DNA from: a virus | Direction: 5' to 3' (one strand) | Length of the DNA: 64,000 nt | Virus record (IMG/VR): IMGVR_UViG_3300036853_000446 | Coordinates: 1 to 64,000 of that record | In this document: positions 46,457-60,700 of the stretch, one piece after another | Layout: the number at the start of each line of letters is the position of its first letter | Numbering within the stretch: position 1 is the first letter of the stretch | Made by a program: the position numbers and the translations under genes | The notes under the pieces: model-generated | What the model was told of the DNA's origin: nothing | The model's input: only the letters and a program-made list of their open reading frames with translations | Databases searched by the model: none

Positions 46457-49400
46457 TCAAAGCTTTGATCTGAGGTTGAAAGTGCAGACGATATATAGAA
46501 GCGGATATATAGGCATAAAAAATGCCTCGATCCTGAGTATCGTCGGATCGTCCGGATCCACGATCGCTGAGATACCGGTGAAGGCCCCGACGATCTCCGC
46601 TTGGACGAGCGAATTGAACATCGCGGTCAAGCTGATCTCCACGTCATTGGTGCGGCTCGCGAGGAACTTCGTGCCGATGTAGACGTCGAGAGTCGAACGC
46701 GCCGATTGCTGCACGAGGTCCGCGATCTGAGTCACGGTCGGGAGGCGACTCAAGATCGTACTCATGTCCGTCGTGAGCCCGTGTCGAATCCGCATTACGG
46801 GGGCGAGGTCCTCGAGCAGCGTCACACCGCTCGTCGCTGTCAGATTGGCCTCGACGGCGTCCAGGATGCGCGGCAGCCGCGTGAAGCCCTGGATGCGTCG
46901 CCGGGTGAACGGCGTCGCCACGTCGAACGCGGGGCTCACCGCAGACCCCGCCACGGCGGCAGCGAGGAACGTCCCGTCAACGAGCGTCTCGAAATTGTTC
47001 CCGAGTTCGTCCGTGAGAGTCACCACGGCCGAATCCGGGTAGATGGCGATGACGCGGTTTGACTCGATGCTGCGAGCCACGGTCTGGGCCGTCGTCGGTC
47101 CCGTCCCCGATGCGAACCCAATATAGGCCATCCGTTCCGACTGGTTGCGGATGGTCGACATGACTTCGACGTGCTGGAGCGTCGCCGAATAGATGGCCGT
47201 GCTGGTCGAGAGCGGCACGATGACGTCGGGCTTGACGTTGCCAGGCAACGGCTTTTCGAGGTCCTTGAGGGCCGTGAGAAAGGCGCGATCCGAGCCCTGG
47301 TTACTGCTCGCGGCCTTGAGGACCTGCTTGATGCCCACGAGAACGGCCCCGTTGAGGATCATGAGGAACGCGGCCAGCGTGACGCGATTCTCGCCGCTCA
47401 AAACGCCGAAATTCGCTTCGATCGTCTTGAACTGCGCGAAGAGGCGCGTCCCGAAATCCTGCTTCATGTAGTGGTAGGTAATGAAATAACTGTCGCCGAC
47501 CGCCGGCTCGAGTCCGCCCGGGTTGAATGTCTGGATGCTGGCGGTGTCGTTCAGGCCGACCCCGACCGTGTCTGTGACGATCAACTCGAGACCCGGCACG
47601 CTGAGGTACGCGATCGACGGACTCACTTTCCACGTCTGGGAAACGTCGAGCGTGAACGCTCCCGTGTCCGTGTAGGTGCCCACGGCGCTCGGGAGAACCG
47701 TGAAGCAGAGCCCTGTGCGGGCGTCCGTATAGGTCTGACCCGGGAAGCCCGTACCGGCGGACCCCGCGGGATTCGTCGAGGTGACGATGAAATCGTCCTT
47801 TGCCGCCTCCCCGTTGTCTCCGTCGCCCGGGGTAATCCCGATCCCCGTGGTCACGTTGAACGCCGAATTGCTGCCGTCGGCGAGCACGACGGTCGACCCT
47901 ACCCCCGTGTGGAGCGATTCGATCGTGATGAACTCGCGGTCGTCGATCTCATGAACCCAAGCGAAGGCTTCTGTCGTGAAGGCCGCAGGGTTCGACGTGT
48001 TCATGAGGATGTCGACGATCTCTTGCGCCGTGACGCGCGTTTCAGACACCTGAGAGCCCGTCGAAAAACCCAGCCTCGTGTTGGCCGAGCCCGCCTTGAT
48101 GAGCAAACGGCTATTCGAACCCGTAGTGGGGCTCGTCAGCCGTATGTGGTTCAGGTTTGATAGGGTGCCGACGGAGGCAAGACCCCCGACGACCGCGTTG
48201 ATGTCGGTCACGATCTGAGCCGCGGTCCTGCCGATACCAGCCGTCAGCGGAATGACGTACTCGACGCCGTCGACCTGCAGATTCAGCTGGTCGTTGACGC
48301 TCGCCGTAATGTCGATCGGCTCCGCCAAGCTGCCCACCAGAGTCGCGGGCTTGTTCGTGGCCGACGCCGTGCCCGAGGCCGACTGGAACGCTTTGAATCC
48401 GAGAACGGCTTCAACGGTGCCTGGACGAACCGAGACGACCGCGCCGTGGTCGAAACCGCCCGGCAACGCTTCGGGCGTCGTGACGGATTTGACGATGAAC
48501 ACGGCATGGCTCGAGCCGATCGAGACCGTCGATGCCAGGGTGGTCGCCCCGAAAACGGTATCGAACACGGCGTCCATTTCCGCCACGATCTCGGACGGGG
48601 TGCGCTCGCCCGGCGTCAGCGGGATGCTCACCTCTCCGTTGCCGCCCGTCATGCCGTGGACGATGAATCCAGAGTTGACGACCGTATCCGTGACGGCTTC
48701 GTTGCTGCCCTCTGCATCGGACGAGTCATTGATCAGAGGGACGAGGGCGCCCACCGGAGCCGACGCCGTGATGAGTAGCCCGTCCCCGACCCCATTGATG
48801 GCCGCCTCGATGGAGGCTGCGACAACGGCCTCCGAATCGCCACCCGTGAACGTGACCGTCACGTGCCCGGAACCAACGCCGGCTCCGCTGTCGAATTCGA
48901 AGACGGTGGGATCGTTGACCCCGTCGTCCAACGTGAAGGTCTCGCCCTCGATGAGCGACGCGCCGCCCACCGCCGTGATCGAGCCTTTGGAGGCGGATAC
49001 CGCGTCGCCAATGGTCAGCTCGAGGACGTTGCCCGGGGCGTCCGGGATCGTAATGTTGCCGCCCGAGAGTGCGACCTTTCTACTCACGAGATAGGCGGGC
49101 GAAGCCGTGCCCAGGTTGGCCACGAAGGCCGTCCCGTTGACCGTCACCCGGAACTGATCGGAGCTTCCCGAGTAGAGATCGTAGGGAGCTTGACCGTCGT
49201 TGGTGAATCGAGCGTTCGTGGTGGTCGTCGACCCAAAGGTCACCGTCACCGTCTCGTTGACGGGCGATCCGGCGCCCGTATGGAAGGCGTCTGGCACCTG
49301 CTCGGCGCCGCGCGGCCACTGGACGACTTCGGGCAGCCCCGCCTTGTTACCGAACCGCACCTGGAAGAGGTTCGTGCCCAATACCGAGCTGCGGACCTCG

Positions 49401-51058
49401 TACTCGCCGGACCCGAGGGCGCCTGACACCTTGTTCGTGAGCGTGCAGACGTCGTCCGTGATCCGGCTGTAGTTGTAGGTTGCGAAGACCGTCTGGTCCG
49501 GCGGCACGACCTCACGCACCTTGAACCGGAGCGTGGTCGAGTCGACCTCCACAACCGTCAGAGCCGAACGGCTGAGAGCGTCGTTGACGTTGCGCCCCGC
49601 CCAAGCCTGGACCAGGTCCGGGCGGTTGCTCGGGAGCGAAATGCGGCTATTGGAAACCGCCGCGTACAGCGTCTGCCCGAGAGGCGTATCCCGGCCATTG
49701 CCCGTTGTCGGGACTTGGGTCAGCACGAACTCGCTGTCGGCGATGAGCGCCGGCACGACGCCCGTATCCACATAGCGCTCGGTCGGAGCCATGAAAATCT
49801 TCTCGTCGACGAGCGTCGAGAGGATCTGAGTCGAGTTGAGGACGGTCGTGCCCGCGGTGTGGCCCGTATTTGCCACGCTGACCGACGTGCCCCAATGGAT
49901 GACCGAGACGTCGGCGCTCGGATTCTCGACGACGAAATCCTGTCCCTGAATGAAATCGCTACGTCCAGAGGCAAACCCGCACCGGACGACGTCCGTGACC
50001 AGAGTGTTGGGTAGGTAGTCGAAGGTGTCTTGCCACGTGTTGGCAAAATACTGGACGCTCACCGTTGCGCCCTGTGGCGGCGGTAGCGCGAGGGTCACGG
50101 TGCCGTTCGTGCCGTCAACGGCGATCGGGACCTTCTGCACGCCGTTGACGAGGACCGTCACCTTGGTCGTGTCGTTCGTCGTGATGCCGCCGTCAGAGCC
50201 ATCCACGATCGGGCGCTGGAAGACTCGGAAACTCTTGGCTCGGCTCGTCTTCTTGCCTTGGGTAAAACCGAAGACGCCGTTGGCTGAGCCGTTACCGATC
50301 TCGACTTCGGAGGCCGCGATCAAAGTCAGGTGGTCGAGCCCGCGGTTGTCGGTAAAGACGAGCGTGGCAAGGCCGGAAATGAGATTCGAATCGATCTCGA
50401 CCTTGAGCGCCGCCGCCGTGTAGGTCGCCGCGGCGAGCGAAAAGATGCGCTCCGTGCCGTCGATGATGACCGAAAGAATCGACGCGCTCGACGAGATCAC
50501 GAACGGCGCCGCCGCTGGCGACGTCAATTCCGCCCGAGTCGCCGTCACCTGGTCGGAGACCGTGTCGGTGAAGGCCGTGTCCGTCCGTCGGAAAAAATAC
50601 GTGACCCGGATGTCGTCGCCAGCCTGCGGAGGCACCTGCAGCGTGACGTAGCCGCCCACCCCCTGCACTGCCCCGACCGCTACCTGCAGGCCGTTGATGG
50701 AGACGCTGACCGCGCGCACGTCGTTCACGACGCGGCCGTAGCCATTGCCGTCGACAATGGGGAAATTCCGAACCCGGAGCTTCGTCACCAGGCCATTCGC
50801 GGCGCCCAAGGTGGGGTTGTTCGGATTCCTCTCAGCGAGGACAAATCGAACCGAAGCATTCTCGCTCAGGATCTGCTGGTCGAGATTCGCGCTCGAGCCA
50901 CGGATGTTCTCGAGGTTGGACTGGATGAGCTGCTCCTGTCCGACGCCAAGGATCACGGGGATGCGCAATCCCGCGACGAGATTTGCAGCGTTTGCCTCCG
51001 TCAGTGTGCGCGTGTACACGCCGGGAGGAACGTACGTCACCATCGGTCCGATAGCCAT
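46457..51058 (-). CDS. Tail sheath protein, very large form (1533 aa)
   Basis: The N-terminus (VTYVPPGVYTRTLTEANAAN ... IPVILGVGQEQL) is the classic Phage_sheath_1 (PF04984) opening. The C-terminal ~330 residues (SERMAYIGFASGTGPTTAQT ... RIQGFTRLPRILDAVEANLT ... SLVQAEIVGAFTGI) match the conserved sheath C-terminal domain that interlocks with the tube. T4 gp18 is 659 aa and many sheaths are 400-500; here ~700-1000 extra residues lie between the ends. They consist of repeated beta modules, including a GETFTLDDGVNDPTVFEFDS-type domain and several LTxGxRTAxxIVxxINAV-like repeats. They probably decorate the sheath surface. ATG start with AGGAGA upstream. Confidence 0.85.
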   Translation of the reverse strand: MAIGPMVTYVPPGVYTRTLTEANAANLVAGLRIPVILGVGQEQLIQSNLENIRGSSANLDQQILSENASVRFVLAERNPNNPTLGAANGLVTKLRVRNFPIVDGNGYGRVVNDVRAVSVSINGLQVAVGAVQGVGGYVTLQVPPQAGDDIRVTYFFRRTDTAFTDTVSDQVTATRAELTSPAAAPFVISSSASILSVIIDGTERIFSLAAATYTAAALKVEIDSNLISGLATLVFTDNRGLDHLTLIAASEVEIGNGSANGVFGFTQGKKTSRAKSFRVFQRPIVDGSDGGITTNDTTKVTVLVNGVQKVPIAVDGTNGTVTLALPPPQGATVSVQYFANTWQDTFDYLPNTLVTDVVRCGFASGRSDFIQGQDFVVENPSADVSVIHWGTSVSVANTGHTAGTTVLNSTQILSTLVDEKIFMAPTERYVDTGVVPALIADSEFVLTQVPTTGNGRDTPLGQTLYAAVSNSRISLPSNRPDLVQAWAGRNVNDALSRSALTVVEVDSTTLRFKVREVVPPDQTVFATYNYSRITDDVCTLTNKVSGALGSGEYEVRSSVLGTNLFQVRFGNKAGLPEVVQWPRGAEQVPDAFHTGAGSPVNETVTVTFGSTTTTNARFTNDGQAPYDLYSGSSDQFRVTVNGTAFVANLGTASPAYLVSRKVALSGGNITIPDAPGNVLELTIGDAVSASKGSITAVGGASLIEGETFTLDDGVNDPTVFEFDSGAGVGSGHVTVTFTGGDSEAVVAASIEAAINGVGDGLLITASAPVGALVPLINDSSDAEGSNEAVTDTVVNSGFIVHGMTGGNGEVSIPLTPGERTPSEIVAEMDAVFDTVFGATTLASTVSIGSSHAVFIVKSVTTPEALPGGFDHGAVVSVRPGTVEAVLGFKAFQSASGTASATNKPATLVGSLAEPIDITASVNDQLNLQVDGVEYVIPLTAGIGRTAAQIVTDINAVVGGLASVGTLSNLNHIRLTSPTTGSNSRLLIKAGSANTRLGFSTGSQVSETRVTAQEIVDILMNTSNPAAFTTEAFAWVHEIDDREFITIESLHTGVGSTVVLADGSNSAFNVTTGIGITPGDGDNGEAAKDDFIVTSTNPAGSAGTGFPGQTYTDARTGLCFTVLPSAVGTYTDTGAFTLDVSQTWKVSPSIAYLSVPGLELIVTDTVGVGLNDTASIQTFNPGGLEPAVGDSYFITYHYMKQDFGTRLFAQFKTIEANFGVLSGENRVTLAAFLMILNGAVLVGIKQVLKAASSNQGSDRAFLTALKDLEKPLPGNVKPDVIVPLSTSTAIYSATLQHVEVMSTIRNQSERMAYIGFASGTGPTTAQTVARSIESNRVIAIYPDSAVVTLTDELGNNFETLVDGTFLAAAVAGSAVSPAFDVATPFTRRRIQGFTRLPRILDAVEANLTATSGVTLLEDLAPVMRIRHGLTTDMSTILSRLPTVTQIADLVQQSARSTLDVYIGTKFLASRTNDVEISLTAMFNSLVQAEIVGAFTGISAIVDPDDPTILRIEAFFMPIYPLLYIVCTFNLRSKL

Positions 51059-51711: not shown

Positions 51712-52194
51712 CTAGGTCTCTTTCTTCATCGAAGCCGTCGAGATGCCCTTCAGCGGGGCTTCGATGCCATCTCGGACGGCCTTCTCTTTGAAGGTGACCT
51801 CGAGCTTCTTACGCGCGGCGAAGCTTCCCTGCGACAGCGTCGTGTATTCCGTGACGACCTGACCCTGCTCGACCTGGTCACGCCGCGCGAGGCCTACGCC
51901 AAGGCCACGGATCTTGTCTTTCGCTGCGTTGCGCTCGTGGATGATGTGCCACTGCGCCTCTGCCGAACGCCCCACGACGTTGTCCGCTGTCGGATAGTCG
52001 TGCTTGGCCACTCCCGAGTTCGCCCGCGCCGTCGCCGCCGTCTCGCAAAAGCCAAAGCCGAAACCCTGGCCTTCCCATTCTCGAGGGGCCCCCTTCTTAC
52101 AGCTCGGGCACTGACACGTCGCGTTTATGCCCATGGCGAGCCGCCGCTTGAACTGGAGATTGCAGGCGCCGCATCGAAACGTGTACTGAGGCAC
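51712..52194 (-). CDS. FmdB-like zinc-ribbon protein (160 aa)
   Basis: GTG start. The first ~35 residues form a zinc ribbon of FmdB/CxxC type: MPQYTFRCGACNLQFKRR with C8 and C11, then CQCPSC with C29 and C32. Such ribbons occur in small regulatory and structural proteins. The rest is a basic helical domain with a Gly-rich start (GQGFGFGF) and no known match. It is encoded just after another small zinc-binding gene and before the gene preceding the sheath. A nucleic-acid or protein-binding adaptor role is possible, but the function is unknown. Confidence 0.65.
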   Translation of the reverse strand: MPQYTFRCGACNLQFKRRLAMGINATCQCPSCKKGAPREWEGQGFGFGFCETAATARANSGVAKHDYPTADNVVGRSAEAQWHIIHERNAAKDKIRGLGVGLARRDQVEQGQVVTEYTTLSQGSFAARKKLEVTFKEKAVRDGIEAPLKGISTASMKKET

Positions 52195-52558: not shown

Positions 52559-53677
52559 TCAGCCGATCCTCTCGAAGTCCGGGTTTCGCCCGGCGAGGAC
52601 GCCATAGGTGTCGTAGAAGGCCTGAGGCGCAACGGTCGCGATGCCCTCGGGTTCGATGTTGCTGATCGTGAGCGGCAGCGGGACGTGAATCTCCCAATCC
52701 GCCTGCAGCTGCACGGTCATCGTGGTCATGAACTGAAAGTCTTGACCCGTCTCGTCGATCGGCTCCTCGGATTCTCCACCCATCGATACGTCCGTTATCT
52801 CGATCCCCTCCCACGCGAGCACGGGACGCTTCTCGCCCCAGAGATACATGCTCACGAGGTCCGTAATTTCTTCGATCTGGGTCGAGTCCCTCGCGATGAT
52901 CTCTAGGTCGAAGGAAACCTCATGCTTTCCGCCGTAGGCTTGCGCCGCCTCGATTCGCTCGGCGTAGACGACGACGGCGGTCTTTTGCCCAGCCTCCGAG
53001 CGCTTCCCGAAGGCCAGGACGACGCCCGGGAGAGTCGTTGCGTCTGCCGTATTCCAGCGAAACGGAACGGGCCCTATCGACTCGATCGGGTATCGGTAGT
53101 CCGCCGTGATGTAGCTATCGGCGGCGAACGGATGCAGAAAGCGAATGCTGCCGTGTGTTCCGACTTCATAGTCGACACCGGCGTGGAGCATCATCGATCG
53201 GTCTTCGTAAAGTCGTAGGGTCCGCTCGAGCGGCACGTTCTGCAGCTGCCCTTCTGGCTCAAATCCGGTCTGGAATCGAAAAACCGGTTCGTTCGTCACC
53301 GTCCGCAAGGGGTCGATGATGAACGAGCCCGCCTCGCCCGGCGTCGTTGGCGCGCTCAGGATCTCGAGATAATAGACCCCCGGGGGCGTCTCGATGACCC
53401 CGCCATGGGCACGCACGGCCGCCAGGTCCTCTCGTACCCATTCGAGGGGGAATACCGACTCCGCGCCGATCTTCGCCAGCATGACGTGGCTCTGCACGGC
53501 GCCGATGAAATTCGAAGCGTCGAGCTGAATCTTGTTCGCGCTGCTGCCCTGCACGACGATCCCAAATTGCGGCCGCTCGTCGAAGGCGAACCGATTCTGA
53601 ATGAACGGGACGAGCTTCCGGTAAATCGGGTGCCGGCTGAAGCTGTCCTTCAGCTCGAGGATGAGCCGCCGCTTCAA
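52559..53677 (-). CDS. Connector / tail-completion structural protein (372 aa)
   Basis: The start is taken as the TTG at 53677; GAGGAAGG lies about 30 bases upstream, so a non-standard start nearer to it is possible. The protein is beta-rich, with YYLEILSAPTTPGEAGSFII, a YEVGTHGSIRFLHPF strand pair and a C-terminal domain (VSFDLEIIARDSTQIEEITD ... QADWEIHVPLPLTIS). The last domain resembles tail-terminator/neck proteins that cap the tail tube. It sits downstream of the actin-like gene. No named family is confirmed; connector or tail terminator is the best guess. Confidence 0.6.
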   Translation of the reverse strand: MKRRLILELKDSFSRHPIYRKLVPFIQNRFAFDERPQFGIVVQGSSANKIQLDASNFIGAVQSHVMLAKIGAESVFPLEWVREDLAAVRAHGGVIETPPGVYYLEILSAPTTPGEAGSFIIDPLRTVTNEPVFRFQTGFEPEGQLQNVPLERTLRLYEDRSMMLHAGVDYEVGTHGSIRFLHPFAADSYITADYRYPIESIGPVPFRWNTADATTLPGVVLAFGKRSEAGQKTAVVVYAERIEAAQAYGGKHEVSFDLEIIARDSTQIEEITDLVSMYLWGEKRPVLAWEGIEITDVSMGGESEEPIDETGQDFQFMTTMTVQLQADWEIHVPLPLTISNIEPEGIATVAPQAFYDTYGVLAGRNPDFERIG

Positions 53678-53734: not shown

Positions 53735-54772
53735 TCAGCGGCTCGCGTGCTCATCCTGGGCGAGCACCAGCAATCCTTCGGCAACGGCCGTAAGCGGGTT
53801 CGGGGCTTGCCGAACCTCGCTGATCTGGATCGGAAACTTCTTACGAACCCGATCAAATTCCTCTTCGAAGATTTCCATGAACCCGCCCGCCTTGCTGGTC
53901 CCCCCGCTCACGATGAAGGGGATCGGCTCAGGCAAATCGACATTGTTGGCGACCCTCTTGAACTCGCTCGTAATGGCCTTGAAGCAATAATCGATGACGT
54001 TTCGGTAATACATGGCGAGCGCCTGCTGCTCTCGACCCTCGGGATTCTTTAGATCGATTCCACGCTCCTTGATGGCGCACATTTGCGAGGCCGTCTTGCC
54101 GATGGCTCGCCCCGCCTGCTGATCGATCCAATCACCGCCGGCCCTCGAAAGGGCGAATTCCATCCCAGAACTAGCCTGATACGCGAGCGCGATGTTGACC
54201 ATACCAGAACCAAAGCTCACGGCGAGGCCGCTGAATTTCTCCTGAGCGCATTGCGAAAAGATGATGGCCATACCCTCGTTCGTCGGTTGGCCCGAGTATC
54301 CGTGCTCGTCGAGAATCTTCCTGAAGACCTCGGTGTGATAAACGATGTCTTGGCCCGGGTTGTCGATCGGCTCTGCCGGCACGCTGTAGAAGCAGAACTC
54401 CCGGGAAACGCGCGGCACGCCAACTACTCTCTTGATCAACTGGCTGATAATCCACTGCGCGTCCAATTCGCCCGCGGAAATGACCCCTCGACTCAGAGGG
54501 CGCCGCACCTCCCGCTTGAAGAGGTTCGCCATCGTCAAGGCGCCCTCGCCAATGACGATGATATCGTCCGAGCCCTCCTTCTTGATGTAATCCACGTTGC
54601 TCATCCGGAGCGATCGTTTGGCGTCCGCCTCCAGATCCAGGAAGGCATCTCGGATCGAGATGGTCACAGTCTTCGCCTCCGATTTGCGTGCCGAAACAAG
54701 GTTGCCAGTGCCGATGTCTAACCCAACACCCAGGGGTTCTCGTATATCGTCGTTCTTCATCTTCATTTCCAT
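53735..54772 (-). CDS. Actin-like ATPase (ParM/MreB/FtsA superfamily, 345 aa)
   Basis: The actin-fold signature motifs are in order: phosphate-1 (GVGLDIGTGNLV, ~15-26), a PTNEGMAII segment with the probable catalytic Glu, phosphate-2 (SFGSGMVNIALAY, ~184-196), adenosine (FIVSGGTSKAGGF, ~284-296) and connect-2 (PNPLTAVAEG). The length is close to ParM and MreB. It is predicted to bind ATP and polymerise. Possible jobs are phage DNA segregation, virion positioning or an assembly role. Three near-adjacent start codons (54772, 54766, 54760) leave the N-terminus uncertain by a few residues. The gene sits between a Dps-like protein and connector genes in a late virion operon, an uncommon place for a filament-forming ATPase. 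Confidence 0.85.
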   Translation of the reverse strand: MEMKMKNDDIREPLGVGLDIGTGNLVSARKSEAKTVTISIRDAFLDLEADAKRSLRMSNVDYIKKEGSDDIIVIGEGALTMANLFKREVRRPLSRGVISAGELDAQWIISQLIKRVVGVPRVSREFCFYSVPAEPIDNPGQDIVYHTEVFRKILDEHGYSGQPTNEGMAIIFSQCAQEKFSGLAVSFGSGMVNIALAYQASSGMEFALSRAGGDWIDQQAGRAIGKTASQMCAIKERGIDLKNPEGREQQALAMYYRNVIDYCFKAITSEFKRVANNVDLPEPIPFIVSGGTSKAGGFMEIFEEEFDRVRKKFPIQISEVRQAPNPLTAVAEGLLVLAQDEHASR

Positions 54773-54794: not shown

Positions 54795-55490
54795 TCAACG
54801 CGCGTACTCGTACACCGCAGACTCTCTCTGCTGGAGCAGGTAGACGAAGGTCTCGTGGAGGTCTGCAACGCCCTGCAAGAGGTTGTCTGCGCCCGGCGTG
54901 AGGCTTTCGGTGGATGATAGAACGGAGAGCGTCTCATCAACGATCGCGAGCACGAGGGACTCCACCCTGAGGCTCGCCTTGACCAGATTTGCCGCGGAGG
55001 CGTCCGGGCTGGCGACGGCCCCAACCATCTGCGCAATCTGCTCGGCCTGACGCGACGGGGTGACCAAATCGGCCGACCCGAGCCCAACGGCCTTCTCCGC
55101 GACTTGATCGATGAATGACTGAGAATCTTTATAGAGGCGATCAAAAAGCAGGTGGTCGGCGTAATAGCTCGGCCCCGATGTCTGCCAATGATGGGTCTGG
55201 TGAAGGAACGAGGCCGCGCGAAGCACGGACAGCACGGCACTCAAGGGGCTCCCCTCTATGCCGCTCCCGAGGCCGCTCCCGATAAAACGTCGAGCCACCC
55301 GCGGGCTCACGTGAGCGCTGGCGACTCGTCGGACGACGGCCTTCGCCTCTCGTGCCATCCGGACGGGCATGTACGGAGGTCCGTGGCGGAGCGGGTCGTA
55401 TTTCGTCGGATCGTGCCAGACGACTTCGGTTCCCTCTTCTCGAGGGTTCGGAGCGGCGCTCTCACAGCCGCACGCCTTCTTCGGGGTCAT
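54795..55490 (-). CDS. Dps-like ferritin with complete ferroxidase motif (231 aa)
   Basis: Residues ~85-231 fit the Dps four-helix family. The inter-subunit ferroxidase ligands align exactly with Listeria Dps spacing: H101 next to W102, H113, D117, D128 and E132 (HHWQTSGPSYYADHLLFDR ... DQVAEKAVGLG). A functional iron-oxidising cage is therefore plausible. The first ~80 residues are an extra basic, Cys-containing N-terminus (MTPKKACGCE ... REAKAVVRRVASAH), unlike the short tails of most Dps proteins, and could bind DNA or attach to a capsid. The gene is 24 bases after the coiled-coil gene and just before the actin-like ATPase. It could be a virion or DNA-protecting protein; that is inference. 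Confidence 0.85.
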   Translation of the reverse strand: MTPKKACGCESAAPNPREEGTEVVWHDPTKYDPLRHGPPYMPVRMAREAKAVVRRVASAHVSPRVARRFIGSGLGSGIEGSPLSAVLSVLRAASFLHQTHHWQTSGPSYYADHLLFDRLYKDSQSFIDQVAEKAVGLGSADLVTPSRQAEQIAQMVGAVASPDASAANLVKASLRVESLVLAIVDETLSVLSSTESLTPGADNLLQGVADLHETFVYLLQQRESAVYEYAR

Positions 55491-55513: not shown

Positions 55514-56179
55514 TCAGGCGGATTTGCCGCGCAGAGATCGCAGCGCCGCGACGGCTTCGTCGAGGTTGCTGATCGACGTGCCTTCCCTGGGATTGATCCG
55601 CACTTCGGCAGCCTCTAAAGTCGTCGGCGGAATGAAATGCGGAACGGCTGCGGCCGTCCGTGCCGGACCGCCGATCCAGGGTGCACGGAACTGTGGGGGC
55701 TGAGGGACCGGGCCCTGGCGAAGAGTCAGCGTTTCGACGGCCCGCTGAATGTTCCAGAGCTGCTCGGTCATGGTGGTCAGAGTCCCCTGCAGCGCCTCGT
55801 TCAGAGCCTGCAGACGCCGGCACTCCTCCCGGCTCGCCTCTAGCTCGACGACCAGGGCCTCCCTCTCCCCCCAGGAGGCCGTCGAAGGCACCACGTCGGC
55901 CTTTGGCGCGGGGACGAAGGGGGCAATCCCTCGACCTCGAAGACTCGGGTTCAGCTGAGGGACTGACTCCTGCTTCATGACCATACCACCCGTGCCACTC
56001 CCCATAACGCTACCGAGTCGCATGACCCGTCGCTGCTGCAGCGCCTCGACGAGGTCCTGCGACCGTTCGGCAAGATGCGCCGGGATCTGGATTGGCACCC
56101 GCTGCGGAACGGTCGTTCGAATGTCCTCGAGATGGCACCCCCCTTGGACCAATCCAATGACGGTGACACCGCCCGTCAC
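55514..56179 (-). CDS. Coiled-coil structural protein (221 aa, GTG start)
   Basis: The frame is open further upstream, but the GTG at 56179 overlaps the previous stop (GTGA), matching the coupling used elsewhere, and the sequence upstream of it reads as a shadow of the preceding gene. The N-terminus (GGVTVIGLVQGGCHLEDIR) leads into TVPQRVPIQIPAHLAERSQD, a segment with IxxP strands. A long coiled coil lies in the middle (LVVELEASREECRRLQALNE ... LQGTLTTMTEQLWNIQRAVE). The rest is Pro-rich. A scaffold, neck or whisker-like role is possible; no family is recognised. Confidence 0.6.
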   Translation of the reverse strand: MTGGVTVIGLVQGGCHLEDIRTTVPQRVPIQIPAHLAERSQDLVEALQQRRVMRLGSVMGSGTGGMVMKQESVPQLNPSLRGRGIAPFVPAPKADVVPSTASWGEREALVVELEASREECRRLQALNEALQGTLTTMTEQLWNIQRAVETLTLRQGPVPQPPQFRAPWIGGPARTAAAVPHFIPPTTLEAAEVRINPREGTSISNLDEAVAALRSLRGKSA

Positions 56180-56691
56180 CGCTGCGCCTTTGCCAGCCCA
56201 ATGCGAATTTCTCGACGGAACTCCTTCGCCAGTCGCGCCATGATCACCTTGCGTGTCTCCACTCGCGCCTTCTCGAGGATGGTGGTTGGCTTCCTCTGAG
56301 GATGGTACCACGAGCCGTTTTCCATCGATCTCGGGGTGGCGTTGCGAAAGATGAGTTTACCCTCGTGCGTGATGATGGGGATGGGACGCTGCGCCTTCAC
56401 GAGCCAGCGCATCTGTTGGTGCTTGCGGCCCTCGAGAAGGGGCCGAAACGCCGGGTGCTTGGCGACGACCGTGATGCTGTGAGGGCCACGCCGGATCTCG
56501 AAACCGTTGCACAGGGCGGTCTTCGCTCGATGTGAGAAGGTACTCTGAAGGATCCGGCTCTGAAGTTGTTTGACGATCTGACGTTGAACGGACTTCAAAA
56601 GTCTCGGGACGTTGACCTTCTCGAGAGCCCCCGGTGGGAGAAGGGGCTTCAGGTTGATGCGCGCGACTTTGACGTTGGGTTGCTGGTACAT
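56176..56691 (-). CDS. Basic connector-region protein (171 aa)
   Basis: ATG start 4 bases after the previous stop. The protein is very basic and helix-strand mixed (LLKSVQRQIVKQLQSRILQS; ITVVAKHPAFRPLLEGRKHQ; RPIPIITHEGKLIFRNATPR; VIMARLAKEFRREIRIGLAK). The order, with an N-terminal helix, central strands containing IPIIT and a C-terminal helix, is reminiscent of tail-completion proteins of the HK97 gp10 type that join head and tail. It lies in the right genomic position for that. The family is not confirmed. Confidence 0.6.
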   Translation of the reverse strand: MYQQPNVKVARINLKPLLPPGALEKVNVPRLLKSVQRQIVKQLQSRILQSTFSHRAKTALCNGFEIRRGPHSITVVAKHPAFRPLLEGRKHQQMRWLVKAQRPIPIITHEGKLIFRNATPRSMENGSWYHPQRKPTTILEKARVETRKVIMARLAKEFRREIRIGLAKAQR

Positions 56692-56695
56692 AGGC

Positions 56696-58048
56696 TCAGT
56701 AGGTCAGATTCTCCCAGGTCTTCGTACGCCCGCGGAGTTCCCGCTCGTTCGGGATATTCGGTTTCGACGTCTCGACGACCGGCGACAGGCCGGGTGGCAA
56801 CACCTGCTCGACGGTGAGCCCCTGCAAGTTGTCGATGGGAAGCCTGTACCGGATGTCCTTCTCGTCGATGTAGCCGATGTTGAAATGCTGTTGAAGAATC
56901 ATCCCGCGGTTCGTCGGCATGCGCACCGGCCCTATCGAGTACCGCTCTCCGTTGATGCGAACGATGAAATCCCGTTGGCTCAAGAGAGGCGCTGGCCCCG
57001 TCCAAACGTCCATGACGTGCTCCAGGTTTCGCCCTCGCGCCGTTTGGTTGATGCGGCGCTCGGCGTCGTCAGGAGCGAACACGATCGCGTAAGGCCCCTC
57101 GTAGCCCCGCAGAATTCCTGTCCCATAACAGTCGGGGCAGTCATTGAGTGGCTGCTTGTGCGTCTCGTATCGCACGCACGAGCACGGCTCGCCCACGGTC
57201 TTCCGGATGTAAACCAGACCGCGTTCGCCCCCCTGTTGCAAGATCCATTGGTTACGACGGACCGCCTCGCGCCAGATCCAGTCGACCTTCTCGATCTCTT
57301 TGGAATTCGTCATGGCCGCCCGCTCGAGCGGCGTCTCGCGAATCTCTTCGACTCGAATCACGTCAAGGTCCGCCCGTATGGGCACCCCAACCGTGGTCAC
57401 GCGGTAGAAGACCCGCGTGCTCAGGTCCGTTCGAACGAGGGTGTTGTTGTACCGATAGCTGACTCGGACAACGGTCGACTCCGCGGGGACCGGCGACGGG
57501 ATCATCTTCTGAGTCGCCACGTCCGGAAACTGGCGCGTTTCGATCTCGATTTCACCCGTCTCGCCGACGACCCTCTTGATGTGCGCGGGCTCCCCATCGA
57601 TGGTGACCCGCACCTCGGCAATGTTCGCCTCCGCAAACGCCTGTGAACCTGCGATGACGATCGGCGATCGCAGCGTCCGGAACACGTAGCGAGGGGGATT
57701 CGTCTCGCTGCCCGCGGCTTCTCCCCGCAAGACCCATTGCGAGTCTTCCACCACTTCGTCGACCACGATGACGTTGTCCGTGCGGTCGCGGTAGAAGCGC
57801 GCGCCGACGGGCAGCTCAGTCAGACGGTAGTAGGGGCCAAACTCGCTGTCGAAGCTCTGGTAGACATTGACCCCCAAGATGACGAACCTCGAATTCGCCG
57901 TCAAAGACGCCGGGTCATCCCAACAGAGGTCGAAAATCCCTGGCTGGTACCCGCTCGTCAGGAACAGGTTCAACGGCGGCACGGGGTACGCCGGGTTTTC
58001 CAGCTCTAGGTCGTGGGGGCTTCGATCCCGTTGCGAGGCGTATGGCAC
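56696..58048 (-). CDS. Virion structural protein with zinc knuckle (450 aa)
   Basis: GTG start. The N-terminal ~230 residues are beta-rich with an Ig/FN3-like start (FDLCWDDPASLTANSRFVIL) and several V-x-V strands. Around residues 287-306 it has a CxC...CxxC cluster (PCSCVRYET; NDCPDCYGTGI) that should bind zinc. The C-terminal ~140 residues hold a membrane-free beta domain (FIVRINGERYSIGPVRMPTN). The GERY/GPVR pattern and the knuckle are of the kind found in head-tail joining or baseplate-linked proteins. A CRRCGG knuckle in the gp25-like protein at 7176-8339 is comparable. Function is inferred as connector or neck; no family is named. Confidence 0.6.
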   Translation of the reverse strand: MPYASQRDRSPHDLELENPAYPVPPLNLFLTSGYQPGIFDLCWDDPASLTANSRFVILGVNVYQSFDSEFGPYYRLTELPVGARFYRDRTDNVIVVDEVVEDSQWVLRGEAAGSETNPPRYVFRTLRSPIVIAGSQAFAEANIAEVRVTIDGEPAHIKRVVGETGEIEIETRQFPDVATQKMIPSPVPAESTVVRVSYRYNNTLVRTDLSTRVFYRVTTVGVPIRADLDVIRVEEIRETPLERAAMTNSKEIEKVDWIWREAVRRNQWILQQGGERGLVYIRKTVGEPCSCVRYETHKQPLNDCPDCYGTGILRGYEGPYAIVFAPDDAERRINQTARGRNLEHVMDVWTGPAPLLSQRDFIVRINGERYSIGPVRMPTNRGMILQQHFNIGYIDEKDIRYRLPIDNLQGLTVEQVLPPGLSPVVETSKPNIPNERELRGRTKTWENLTY

Positions 58049-58468: not shown

Positions 58469-58585
58469 CTAGCCAAGCTCGCGCAGCTTGGCGATCACAC
58501 GGTCACGCCCCATGCATCTGCCGCAGGAGAACGACACGTCGAACGTTATGGCGTCATCCCACCAGCTTACACCAATTTGCCACAC
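58469..58585 (-). pseudogene. 38-codon remnant or mini-ORF with CxxC downstream of the endonuclease
   Basis: A frame ending in TAG at 58469-58471 and readable from a GTG at 58585 encodes a plausible sequence with DDAITFDVSFSCGRCMGRDR followed by VIAKLRELG. It contains a CxxC pair. Its upstream part overlaps the end of the endonuclease gene in another frame. No strong start is visible. It could be the tail of a gene displaced by insertion of the endonuclease or a very small zinc protein. Confidence 0.3.
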
Positions 58586-59798
58586 AGCTGACGATGGCAG
58601 CAGGGTCCCGTACAAATTCTGATTCCCAGATCACTAGACACTCAATTCCAACCTCCAAAAATGCGTCGATGACCTCTTGCTCGTGCTCCCAGATATCTTT
58701 CCCTGTAAATGCCTCCGAATGCCAGTAGTCGCCGAAGACTTCCACTACCTTCCTAATACCCCGATTGGCTAGCACGACTTCTGGCCCCGGCAGAACGAAG
58801 TCAGGGTTCTTGTGACATTTCAGCTTAGGAAGCCATACCCAATAGCTTCCATCACCGGTATATAGAAGCTGCGTCAAACACTCGGCGAAACGACGTTCCA
58901 GCCCGTTTGGACCCGGACGCCTGAAGTCCTTCCAAGCCGCTCGTGCCACCTCTGCATTTTGCATGGCATATGGGACACCGTATCGCGCAATCGAAGTCTT
59001 CTTAGCCTTATCATGAATGACTGGATTCTGCAGCGGGTGAGTCACCCCGTAACGCACCAAACACGTCTGCTCTCGACGTTGCTGCACCTGCAGGTTTTGA
59101 AGGGGACTACAAACGCCATATACCTTCAAACAGGTCGTGCGCATCTTGTCGACAATTTCAGCAGAAGCTGACGGCGCGGGACCGCCAAATCGTAAGATGC
59201 ACGTTGCCCTTCTCTTACTAATAGCACCCGGGATTGCACCCGTAGCTTCCACTCCGTACCTAAGTAAGCACGTTCCTCTCAGCCGGACACGGATCTCTTC
59301 CGATTGCAACGGGCTCGACACACCGTAGTTGATTTTTAGCGTGGCTACCTGACGTGCCTTTGTCTCCGATACTCGCATCGGATTTGCATCTCCTTTAGGG
59401 AATCTTCCTCGTTTCGGAGCGCGCTTCCTTTCAATGCTCTCGTACAATGGTGACTCCTTACAGAAGACATTTTCAACGCCATACTTCGTTTTTAGAGTCA
59501 ACTTACGCCGCTCTTCCAATCCCGGAATTTTTCGAAAAGATTCAGTGCCGTACCGCTCTAAGAGCGTTGCTTTCTGCCGAACACTCTGGACATCCCTACT
59601 GCGCGATAGCCATACCGAGCAACACTTGTGATGGCTCGCCATCCGACTTTCGTTAATAGCCGCGAACCCACACAGGCAATCCCTTGGGGTCAAATCCCCG
59701 AGAACAAGCTTCCAACCGCTACAGACGGCTTTGTGGCGTGAGTTTATACTGTCGGAGTTTGGGAAGTGCTTTCGACAGTGTGGACAGGTAACCGGCAT
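58554..59798 (-). CDS. Homing-endonuclease-like protein with YGV repeats and Vsr-like nuclease (414 aa)
   Basis: The N-terminus is a zinc finger (C5, C8, H22, C26). Eight repeats of about 30-36 residues follow, each with a K/R-x-T-x-L-x-R-Y-G-V core often ended by PLQN (for example CLVRYGVTHPLQN, SIARYGVPYAMQN), a pattern seen in phage homing-type DNA-binding proteins. The last ~110 residues look like the Vsr/EDxHD nuclease fold: an E in GLERRFAECL, NPDF, EVFGDYWHSE, then WEHEQEVIDAF and ECLVIWESEF. The gene is visibly AT-richer than its neighbours and has no clear ribosome site. It lies between two structural genes with no intron or intein evident, so it would be a free-standing mobile endonuclease. 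Confidence 0.8.
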   Translation of the reverse strand: MPVTCPHCRKHFPNSDSINSRHKAVCSGWKLVLGDLTPRDCLCGFAAINESRMASHHKCCSVWLSRSRDVQSVRQKATLLERYGTESFRKIPGLEERRKLTLKTKYGVENVFCKESPLYESIERKRAPKRGRFPKGDANPMRVSETKARQVATLKINYGVSSPLQSEEIRVRLRGTCLLRYGVEATGAIPGAISKRRATCILRFGGPAPSASAEIVDKMRTTCLKVYGVCSPLQNLQVQQRREQTCLVRYGVTHPLQNPVIHDKAKKTSIARYGVPYAMQNAEVARAAWKDFRRPGPNGLERRFAECLTQLLYTGDGSYWVWLPKLKCHKNPDFVLPGPEVVLANRGIRKVVEVFGDYWHSEAFTGKDIWEHEQEVIDAFLEVGIECLVIWESEFVRDPAAIVSCVANWCKLVG

Positions 59799-59815: not shown

Positions 59816-60700
59816 TCATCCCATGAACTTCTGTGGTGTGAGGACACCTCGGCCGCTATAGGGTCCAAAGGAACTACGGATCCCAATTCCGAAGCGGGGC
59901 TGTTGTAAACCCTTGATTACACGGACAGTTTGTTTGGCTTTCTCGAGTTGGCCTTCGAAGAGATCTTTGAAATTGTTGGCGGCGGCCTCGTACTTGCTCG
60001 ACTTGTCCAGATTGAGACTCACGCCACCAATCGAATAATCGAACTCTTCGGAAATCCAGTTGATCATGAGAGCAAGCAGCGCGTAGTTTGCAGCGCCCGT
60101 CAGCAGCAGCGTTCGCCACTCGGGCTTCCATTGACTCATGACGCTCATGTTCTGAAACGGCGTCCGAGGTGGCGATGCGATGACCGCGTCGAGCGCACGC
60201 TCCAGGAACTCTTTCAGCTCGACATCCTCCCAGATGTAGCCGAACACGCGGTTGAACTGGCTGACGGTCTCCTCGTGCGCAGGAGGCCTAAACCTATAAT
60301 TTCTATCAGGATTTGAATCTCTGAGCATGATCCTGAGTCGACGCACGAGGTCAGCCTCGCAATCGTTCATGTTCAAGCTCATGACCGTCTTGTCGATGAC
60401 CTCGAACTCCTGGATGGCCTGATGGACGGGCCCGCCAACGGTCTCGCGGAACGTCCAGCGAGCCCGATAGACCCCGATGTTGGCGTCGAGCGGGATGATG
60501 ATGCTCGCGTAATACTTGCCAACCTCCGGGCTCGCCGGTGAGCGCCGCGGCGCGCCCAAGAGAACCTCCCGCCCCGTCGTGAAGTCGTAGAGGGTGTAGT
60601 AGACCTCGGCCGCATTCGAGGGCGTCCCCGAACTGTTTTCCAAGAAGATGTTGAGGTCCTCTGGACCTAGCTGCTGACCTTTAAAGAATGCGACAGACAT
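59816..60700 (-). CDS. Connector/neck structural protein with N-terminal Ig-like domain (294 aa)
   Basis: The first ~105 residues are an Ig-like domain (AAEVYYTLYDFTTGREVLLG ... GVYRARWTFRE ... IQEFEVID), a type also found in the genes at 60980-61729 and 62184-62570. The rest is helical: DCEADLVRRLRIMLRDSNPD, VFGYIWEDVELKEFLERALD, AANYALLALMINWISEEFDY and DKSSKYEAAANNFKDLFEGQ. That arrangement (a small-molecule-like helical bundle of ~180 residues) is familiar from head-completion/neck proteins of large phages. It is probably a connector or adaptor at the head-tail joint. ATG start 3 bases after the preceding stop. Confidence 0.65.
   Translation of the reverse strand: MSVAFFKGQQLGPEDLNIFLENSSGTPSNAAEVYYTLYDFTTGREVLLGAPRRSPASPEVGKYYASIIIPLDANIGVYRARWTFRETVGGPVHQAIQEFEVIDKTVMSLNMNDCEADLVRRLRIMLRDSNPDRNYRFRPPAHEETVSQFNRVFGYIWEDVELKEFLERALDAVIASPPRTPFQNMSVMSQWKPEWRTLLLTGAANYALLALMINWISEEFDYSIGGVSLNLDKSSKYEAAANNFKDLFEGQLEKAKQTVRVIKGLQQPRFGIGIRSSFGPYSGRGVLTPQKFMG

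Follow-up and report, generated by a model that had tools for sequence, protein, structure and literature searches.

A Dps-like ferritin encoded within the connector/tail module of an uncultured jumbo-phage clade

The stretch of DNA analysed here (the window) covers the opening 64 kb of a virus record of 407,634 bases. It contains one ferritin-family match, a gene for a Dps-like protein at 54795-55490 on the minus strand, which lies among genes resembling those for phage connector, neck and tail proteins. The features of this region are as follows.

46457..51058, minus strand: tail-sheath-like protein, 1533 aa (family profile against Tunturi_5 gp326 'tail sheath', E 3e-287)
51712..52194, minus strand: zinc-ribbon protein, 160 aa (PF09723, E 2.6e-6, under cut-off), conserved in the cluster
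52559..53677, minus strand: 372-aa cluster gene, distant match to Tunturi_5 gp324, which is annotated as a tail terminator
53735..54772, minus strand: volactin-family actin-like gene, 345 aa (PF25216), directly downstream of Dps after a 22-base gap
54795..55490, minus strand: Dps-like ferritin gene P0001, 231 aa, ATG start (PDB, profile and structure matches)
54825..55244, minus strand: Dps four-helix domain with BC helix, codons 83-222 (AlphaFold2, Foldseek)
55095..55190, minus strand: ferroxidase residues H101, H113, D128 and E132 (invariant), W102 and D117, codons 101-132 (residue count, alignment)
55245..55364, minus strand: poorly conserved linker, codons 43-82, with two predicted helices (47-60 and 63-76)
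55365..55418, minus strand: conserved N-terminal motif WHDPTKYDPLRHGPPYMP, candidate docking peptide, codons 25-42 (family alignment)
55514..56311, minus strand: 265-aa cluster gene upstream of Dps (length as called; uncertain start), conserved in the cluster
56176..56691, minus strand: 171-aa cluster gene, probably tail completion or head-tail joining by position, conserved in the cluster
56696..58048, minus strand: neck/minor tail protein, 450 aa (Tunturi_5 gp322 'minor tail protein', E 2e-96)
59816..60700, minus strand: head-tail connector-like protein, 294 aa (Tunturi_5 gp319 'head-tail connector protein', E 8e-87)

The original prediction had placed a Dps-like protein at 54795-55490; the open reading frame is real and lies on the minus strand, which the prediction had not given. 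Using phmmer against the PDB, we found Dlp-1 as the top match (E 5.2e-7), with nearly all other matches being Dps or ferritin proteins, and a family profile made the same assignment at E 2.7e-14. PHROG 3636, 'DNA binding protein', also matched (E 4.2e-8). Judged on these matches, the resemblance to Dps is far beyond chance. Scores against curated profiles were lower, at 22.0 bits for Pfam Ferritin (E 1.7e-4; cut-off 24.5), 25.6 bits for Pfam DUF5856 (PF19174; E 2.6e-5; gathering cut-off 34.6), and 29 of 300 bits and 27 of 114 bits for the Dps equivalog profiles, far under their cut-offs. Because curated cut-offs are set for close family members, the protein is most safely called 'divergent Dps-like'.

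An AlphaFold2 monomer model built from the family alignment (mean pLDDT 85.7, pTM 0.78) has the Dps helix pattern, with helices at 82-103, 109-137, 145-159 (BC), 166-193 and 199-224. That is a four-helix bundle with a short BC-loop helix and no fifth helix, and in a Foldseek search of the PDB the best 50 matches were all Dps, at probability 1.00. In the model, H101 lies at the end of helix A, while H113, D117, D128 and E132 lie on helix B, as in Dps, so that both the predicted fold and the placement of the named residues agree with what had been proposed. Known Dps proteins are built from twelve subunits; iron is oxidized by peroxide where subunits meet at the two-fold interfaces, and is stored inside.

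The putative ferroxidase residues were indeed found where they had been described, with W102, H113 (+12), D117 (+16), D128 (+27) and E132 (+31) following H101, at the spacing of H31-W32-H43-D47-D58-E62 of Listeria Dps, as numbered in the original prediction. An alignment of 63 divergent relatives, reaching down to 24% identity, has just 11 invariant columns (H101, G106, D112, H113, Y120, D128, E132, G200, E213, Y217 and R222), and the ligands H101, H113, D128 and E132 account for 4 of these. W102 is kept in 59 of 64 sequences. The D117 column, by contrast with the invariant four, holds E in 33, D in 14, Q in 7, M in 4, G in 3, A in 2 and P in 1, which rules out full conservation of five ligands. 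The claim that all ferroxidase residues are present thus becomes one of four ligands and a loose fifth. Iron-oxidizing chemistry is likely.

Relatives were collected from IMG/VR with Dps as a single sequence (16 loci) or an alignment (54 loci), and with the 372-aa neighbour as a second marker that avoids selection for Dps (80 loci, the best 80 of 157 relatives). The scans were pooled and near-copies removed; about half of the loci come from Dps queries. All members of the clade are uncultured contigs. Two scans of 84,980 genomes for a cellular source or host gave no relative of either Dps or the 372-aa marker. Using BLAST with the window genes against these loci, we found a shared order of connector-like 294 aa, 103 aa, 450 aa, 171 aa, 265 aa, Dps, actin-like, 372 aa, zinc ribbon and sheath-like 1533 aa. 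Dps lies between the 171-aa gene and the actin gene in 54 of the 55 distinct clusters with both flanks (pooled scans, the 372-aa scan contributing its best 80 of 157 relatives), and the order is unchanged at loci whose Dps is 39-50% identical. Dps and actin lie within 150 bases of one another in 46 of 54 clusters.

In pairwise comparisons, Dps and three of its neighbours have diverged in step (Mantel r of 0.61, 0.63 and 0.78; 0 of 500 permutations as high), so Dps is inherited along with the module. The 450-aa neck gene tracks it best (r 0.78, against 0.61 for actin). Some genomes lack this arrangement. One record (L073; IMGVR 3300033489_000001) has the whole cluster and actin, with Dps nowhere in its 411,618 bases, and offers a natural comparison genome. 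The annotated phage Tunturi_5 carries the same tail genes with neither Dps nor actin there, and no Dps elsewhere in its genome; LR745208 has actin in the cluster and a motif-free Dps 142 kb away; LR756511 has actin and no Dps. Given the Dps-free cluster of Tunturi_5 and the displaced Dps of LR745208, Dps joined the module within the history of the clade. A Dps in a tail-connector cluster had been called unexpected; the cluster setting holds, but it is no local oddity, being shared by nearly all comparable clusters. As judged by gene order and co-divergence, this Dps is a member of the connector/tail module and not a stray stress gene.

Several neighbouring genes merit description. The actin-like protein matches Volactin (PF25216) at E 3.6e-69 and 234 bits (cut-off 35), a family named from Haloferax volcanii. 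Phages are not mentioned in the volactin paper; volactin-like actins also occur in two INPHARED huge-phage records, LR745208 (49.8%) and LR756511 (27.1%). For the 372-aa protein, the profile had no match in the PDB and the AlphaFold2 model was too poor for use (pLDDT 50). The 450-aa gene also matches phrog_1004 (virion structural) weakly, at E 0.007. As called, the genes at 55514-56311 and 56176-56691 (minus strand) overlap by 136 bases, and the true start of the 265-aa gene is probably further downstream. A homing-endonuclease-like gene (58554-59798, minus strand; phrog_3339, E 9e-27) separates the 103-aa and 294-aa cluster genes; relatives of it occur at the same place in loci L005, L007 and L011 but are absent from most others, so it is a mobile insertion. 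In several relatives (for example L024:9500-9947, L023 and L073:5500-6000), a further small gene, with the pattern KYTDPxGxxFYLxE...SPxTGKsF, separates the 265-aa gene from Dps (or actin). Terminator-like sites were no more numerous than expected by chance, and the terminase family PF03237 had no match in the phage's own genome.

Upstream of its Dps domain, the window protein carries an 80-residue extension that had been described as basic and Cys-containing. This is true of the protein itself (net charge +5, two Cys), but not of the family, in which the median net charge is -2 and any Cys occurs in 11 of 53 cluster members; we therefore dropped the idea that basic charge or Cys content is its key trait. 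Conservation lies in an 18-residue motif at residues 25-42, with the family form W-x-D-P-[TSL]-x-[YF]-[DN]-x4-G-P-P-[YF]-L-P. It is present without gaps in 52 of 53 cluster Dps proteins, including 3 in which A replaces the first G, and in none of 10 relatives encoded elsewhere. The cluster member L024 lacks it, as does L037, which has the same locus. Mean column entropy is 1.24 bits for the motif, 2.68 bits for the linker and 1.14 bits for catalytic helix B; by this measure the motif is about as conserved as the catalytic helix, and the linker is not. AlphaFold2 confidence over the motif is low (block means 62-72).

One relative, L012, has 49% identity in the Dps domain, like cluster members, and is nested among them (SH-aLRT 88), yet has neither the cluster nor the motif, so distance alone does not account for the missing motif. 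Where the neighbours of motif-free relatives outside the cluster were checked, they were DnaB helicase/ribonucleotide reductase, IMPDH or GroEL-type chaperonin genes. We also considered whether other proteins share the motif. The phage's own genome has no second copy, and the only three matches among six-frame open reading frames of the fetched loci were partial and in frames of 56-61 aa, ruling this out. Separately, the Dps proteins at L105:5681-6841, L018:4509-5414 and L019:5027-5923 are extended at the C terminus by some 80 to 150 residues, and PADR1_N matched two members of set A4 (best E 2.8e-5).

On the basis of these observations, we propose, at a probability of roughly one half, that a Dps-type ferroxidase cage has been built into the late virion-assembly module of this jumbo-phage clade, where it would be docked through the motif and protect DNA. 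With genes 22-23 bases apart on one strand, Dps would be produced late, on one transcript with the neck and sheath genes. Twelve subunits would form a hollow shell whose two-fold interfaces oxidize Fe(II), consuming peroxide or oxygen. The motif, held on a variable linker, may dock the cage to the neck, the portal or the capsid interior, and the docked cage would remove iron that otherwise drives Fenton damage to the long genome, packaged or being packaged, and to the particle. Attachment to the virion, raised in the original prediction, is a reasonable reading of the conserved position, the cluster-specific motif and literature precedent, although a place among virion genes is not in itself proof that the protein is in the particle. 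The idea, from the same prediction, that the protein defends against oxidative bursts during infection is speculative. More tentatively, and at less than even odds, the clade may load the cage into or onto each virion through the N-terminal motif as a standard virus part, an encapsulin-like cargo system in a tailed-phage particle.

It is also possible, if somewhat doubtful, that the protein is a soluble, late cytosolic Dps that is no part of the particle and that, inside the infected cell, detoxifies iron or peroxide or coats the DNA of the phage; the motif would then help the cage to self-assemble or line its pores. All known Dps proteins act without a virion, and long N-terminal tails occur in cellular Dps, for example in Deinococcus. 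Dps genes of other phages are located amid genes of metabolism, and other phage Dps proteins have been read as guarding anaerobic hosts (PMC8008677). By itself, however, a cytosolic role leaves unexplained both the fixed place in the virion module (54 of 55 clusters) and the restriction of the motif to the cluster version; the extension is not basic across the family, so DNA binding through the tail, as basic tails allow in some Dps proteins, is no family trait. We consider it improbable that the four-helix cage or dimer is simply re-used as a virion building block whose metal sites merely stabilize an interface. The position in the connector cluster and the vertical inheritance with structural genes would fit such re-use, but the ferroxidase residues are among the only 11 invariant columns, L073 has the same cluster without Dps, and Tunturi_5 has the tail genes without it. 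Least probable of all, and very unlikely, is a partnership in which Dps, bound to DNA or to particles under assembly, tethers them to volactin-like actin filaments, which would suit the short Dps-actin distance in most clusters, but L073 and LR756511 have actin and no Dps, LR745208 keeps the two genes far apart, and Dps divergence follows the neck gene more closely than actin.

Phage Dps is usually read as an optional stress gene; here it is near-universal and vertically inherited as part of the connector/tail module across a large clade of jumbo phages, and the adjoining volactin-like actin emerges as another conserved gene of that module. If docking of the cage is true, these particles carry their own iron-oxidizing machine, which would tie phage capsids to their encapsulin relatives and offer a concrete way of testing how packaged genomes of such length withstand oxidative damage.

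A search of viral protein structures bears on location. Uncultured-phage proteins in BFVD named 'Prohead protease' or 'ParB/Sulfiredoxin' (A0A6J7XDU5, A0A6J7WIS1, A0A6J7WPK9 and A0A6J5LAB8) have a Dps-like fold, and the 'Prohead protease'-named matches are 333-763 aa long. These models suggest that Dps has been fused to head-assembly or DNA-binding domains; if true fusions, the 'Prohead protease' matches would favour a place for Dps within the head. Using tblastn with two non-cluster relatives against annotated phages, we found no Dps-prohead-protease fusion.

Compared with bacterial and cyanobacterial Dps proteins (Dlp-1, Nostoc Dps4 and Listeria Dps), the window protein shares the four-helix fold with BC helix and the H/H/D/E core spacing. 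It differs in its extension of about 72-80 residues with the conserved 18-residue motif, in the variability of the D47 equivalent across its family, and in being encoded in a phage virion module. DUF5856 (PF19174) matches 37 of 63 members of the family at E ≤ 0.01, with the window protein itself under the cut-off, and the best match to the window Dps in INPHARED is not close (27.9%). Dps is also phage-encoded in Kuravirus-like phages, Privateer and Lactobacillus phages (PMC6669764), and in Gratiaviridae and 36 other gut phage genomes, where it was read as protecting anaerobic hosts (PMC8008677). Unlike the connector/tail setting described here, the Dps gene of Cronobacter phage GAP52 lies by RNR and polymerase genes and that of SU10 among middle genes. 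The Dps-family protein of Privateer was detected by mass spectrometry in purified virions (PMC7881722). Mass spectrometry of SU10 phage concentrate gave 6 peptides of its Dps-domain protein (35.8% coverage); because DNA polymerase was present in the concentrate too, the protein may be carry-over (PMC4281155).

In encapsulins, a terminal peptide loads ferritin-like cargo into an HK97-fold shell (PMC11202242). The proposed docking through the motif would resemble this targeting, the likeness to cargo such as EncFtn and IMEF being that of a ferroxidase protein with a terminal peptide. We intend a mechanistic analogy only: the peptide here is N-terminal and, as far as known, unrelated in sequence, and membership among encapsulin cargo is not claimed. 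Our literature search, of incomplete coverage, returned no paper on Dps as a core gene of a connector cluster, on the motif or on DUF5856. Phage Dps is thus already known, and its fold and chemistry here are ordinary; the setting and the motif are what set it apart.
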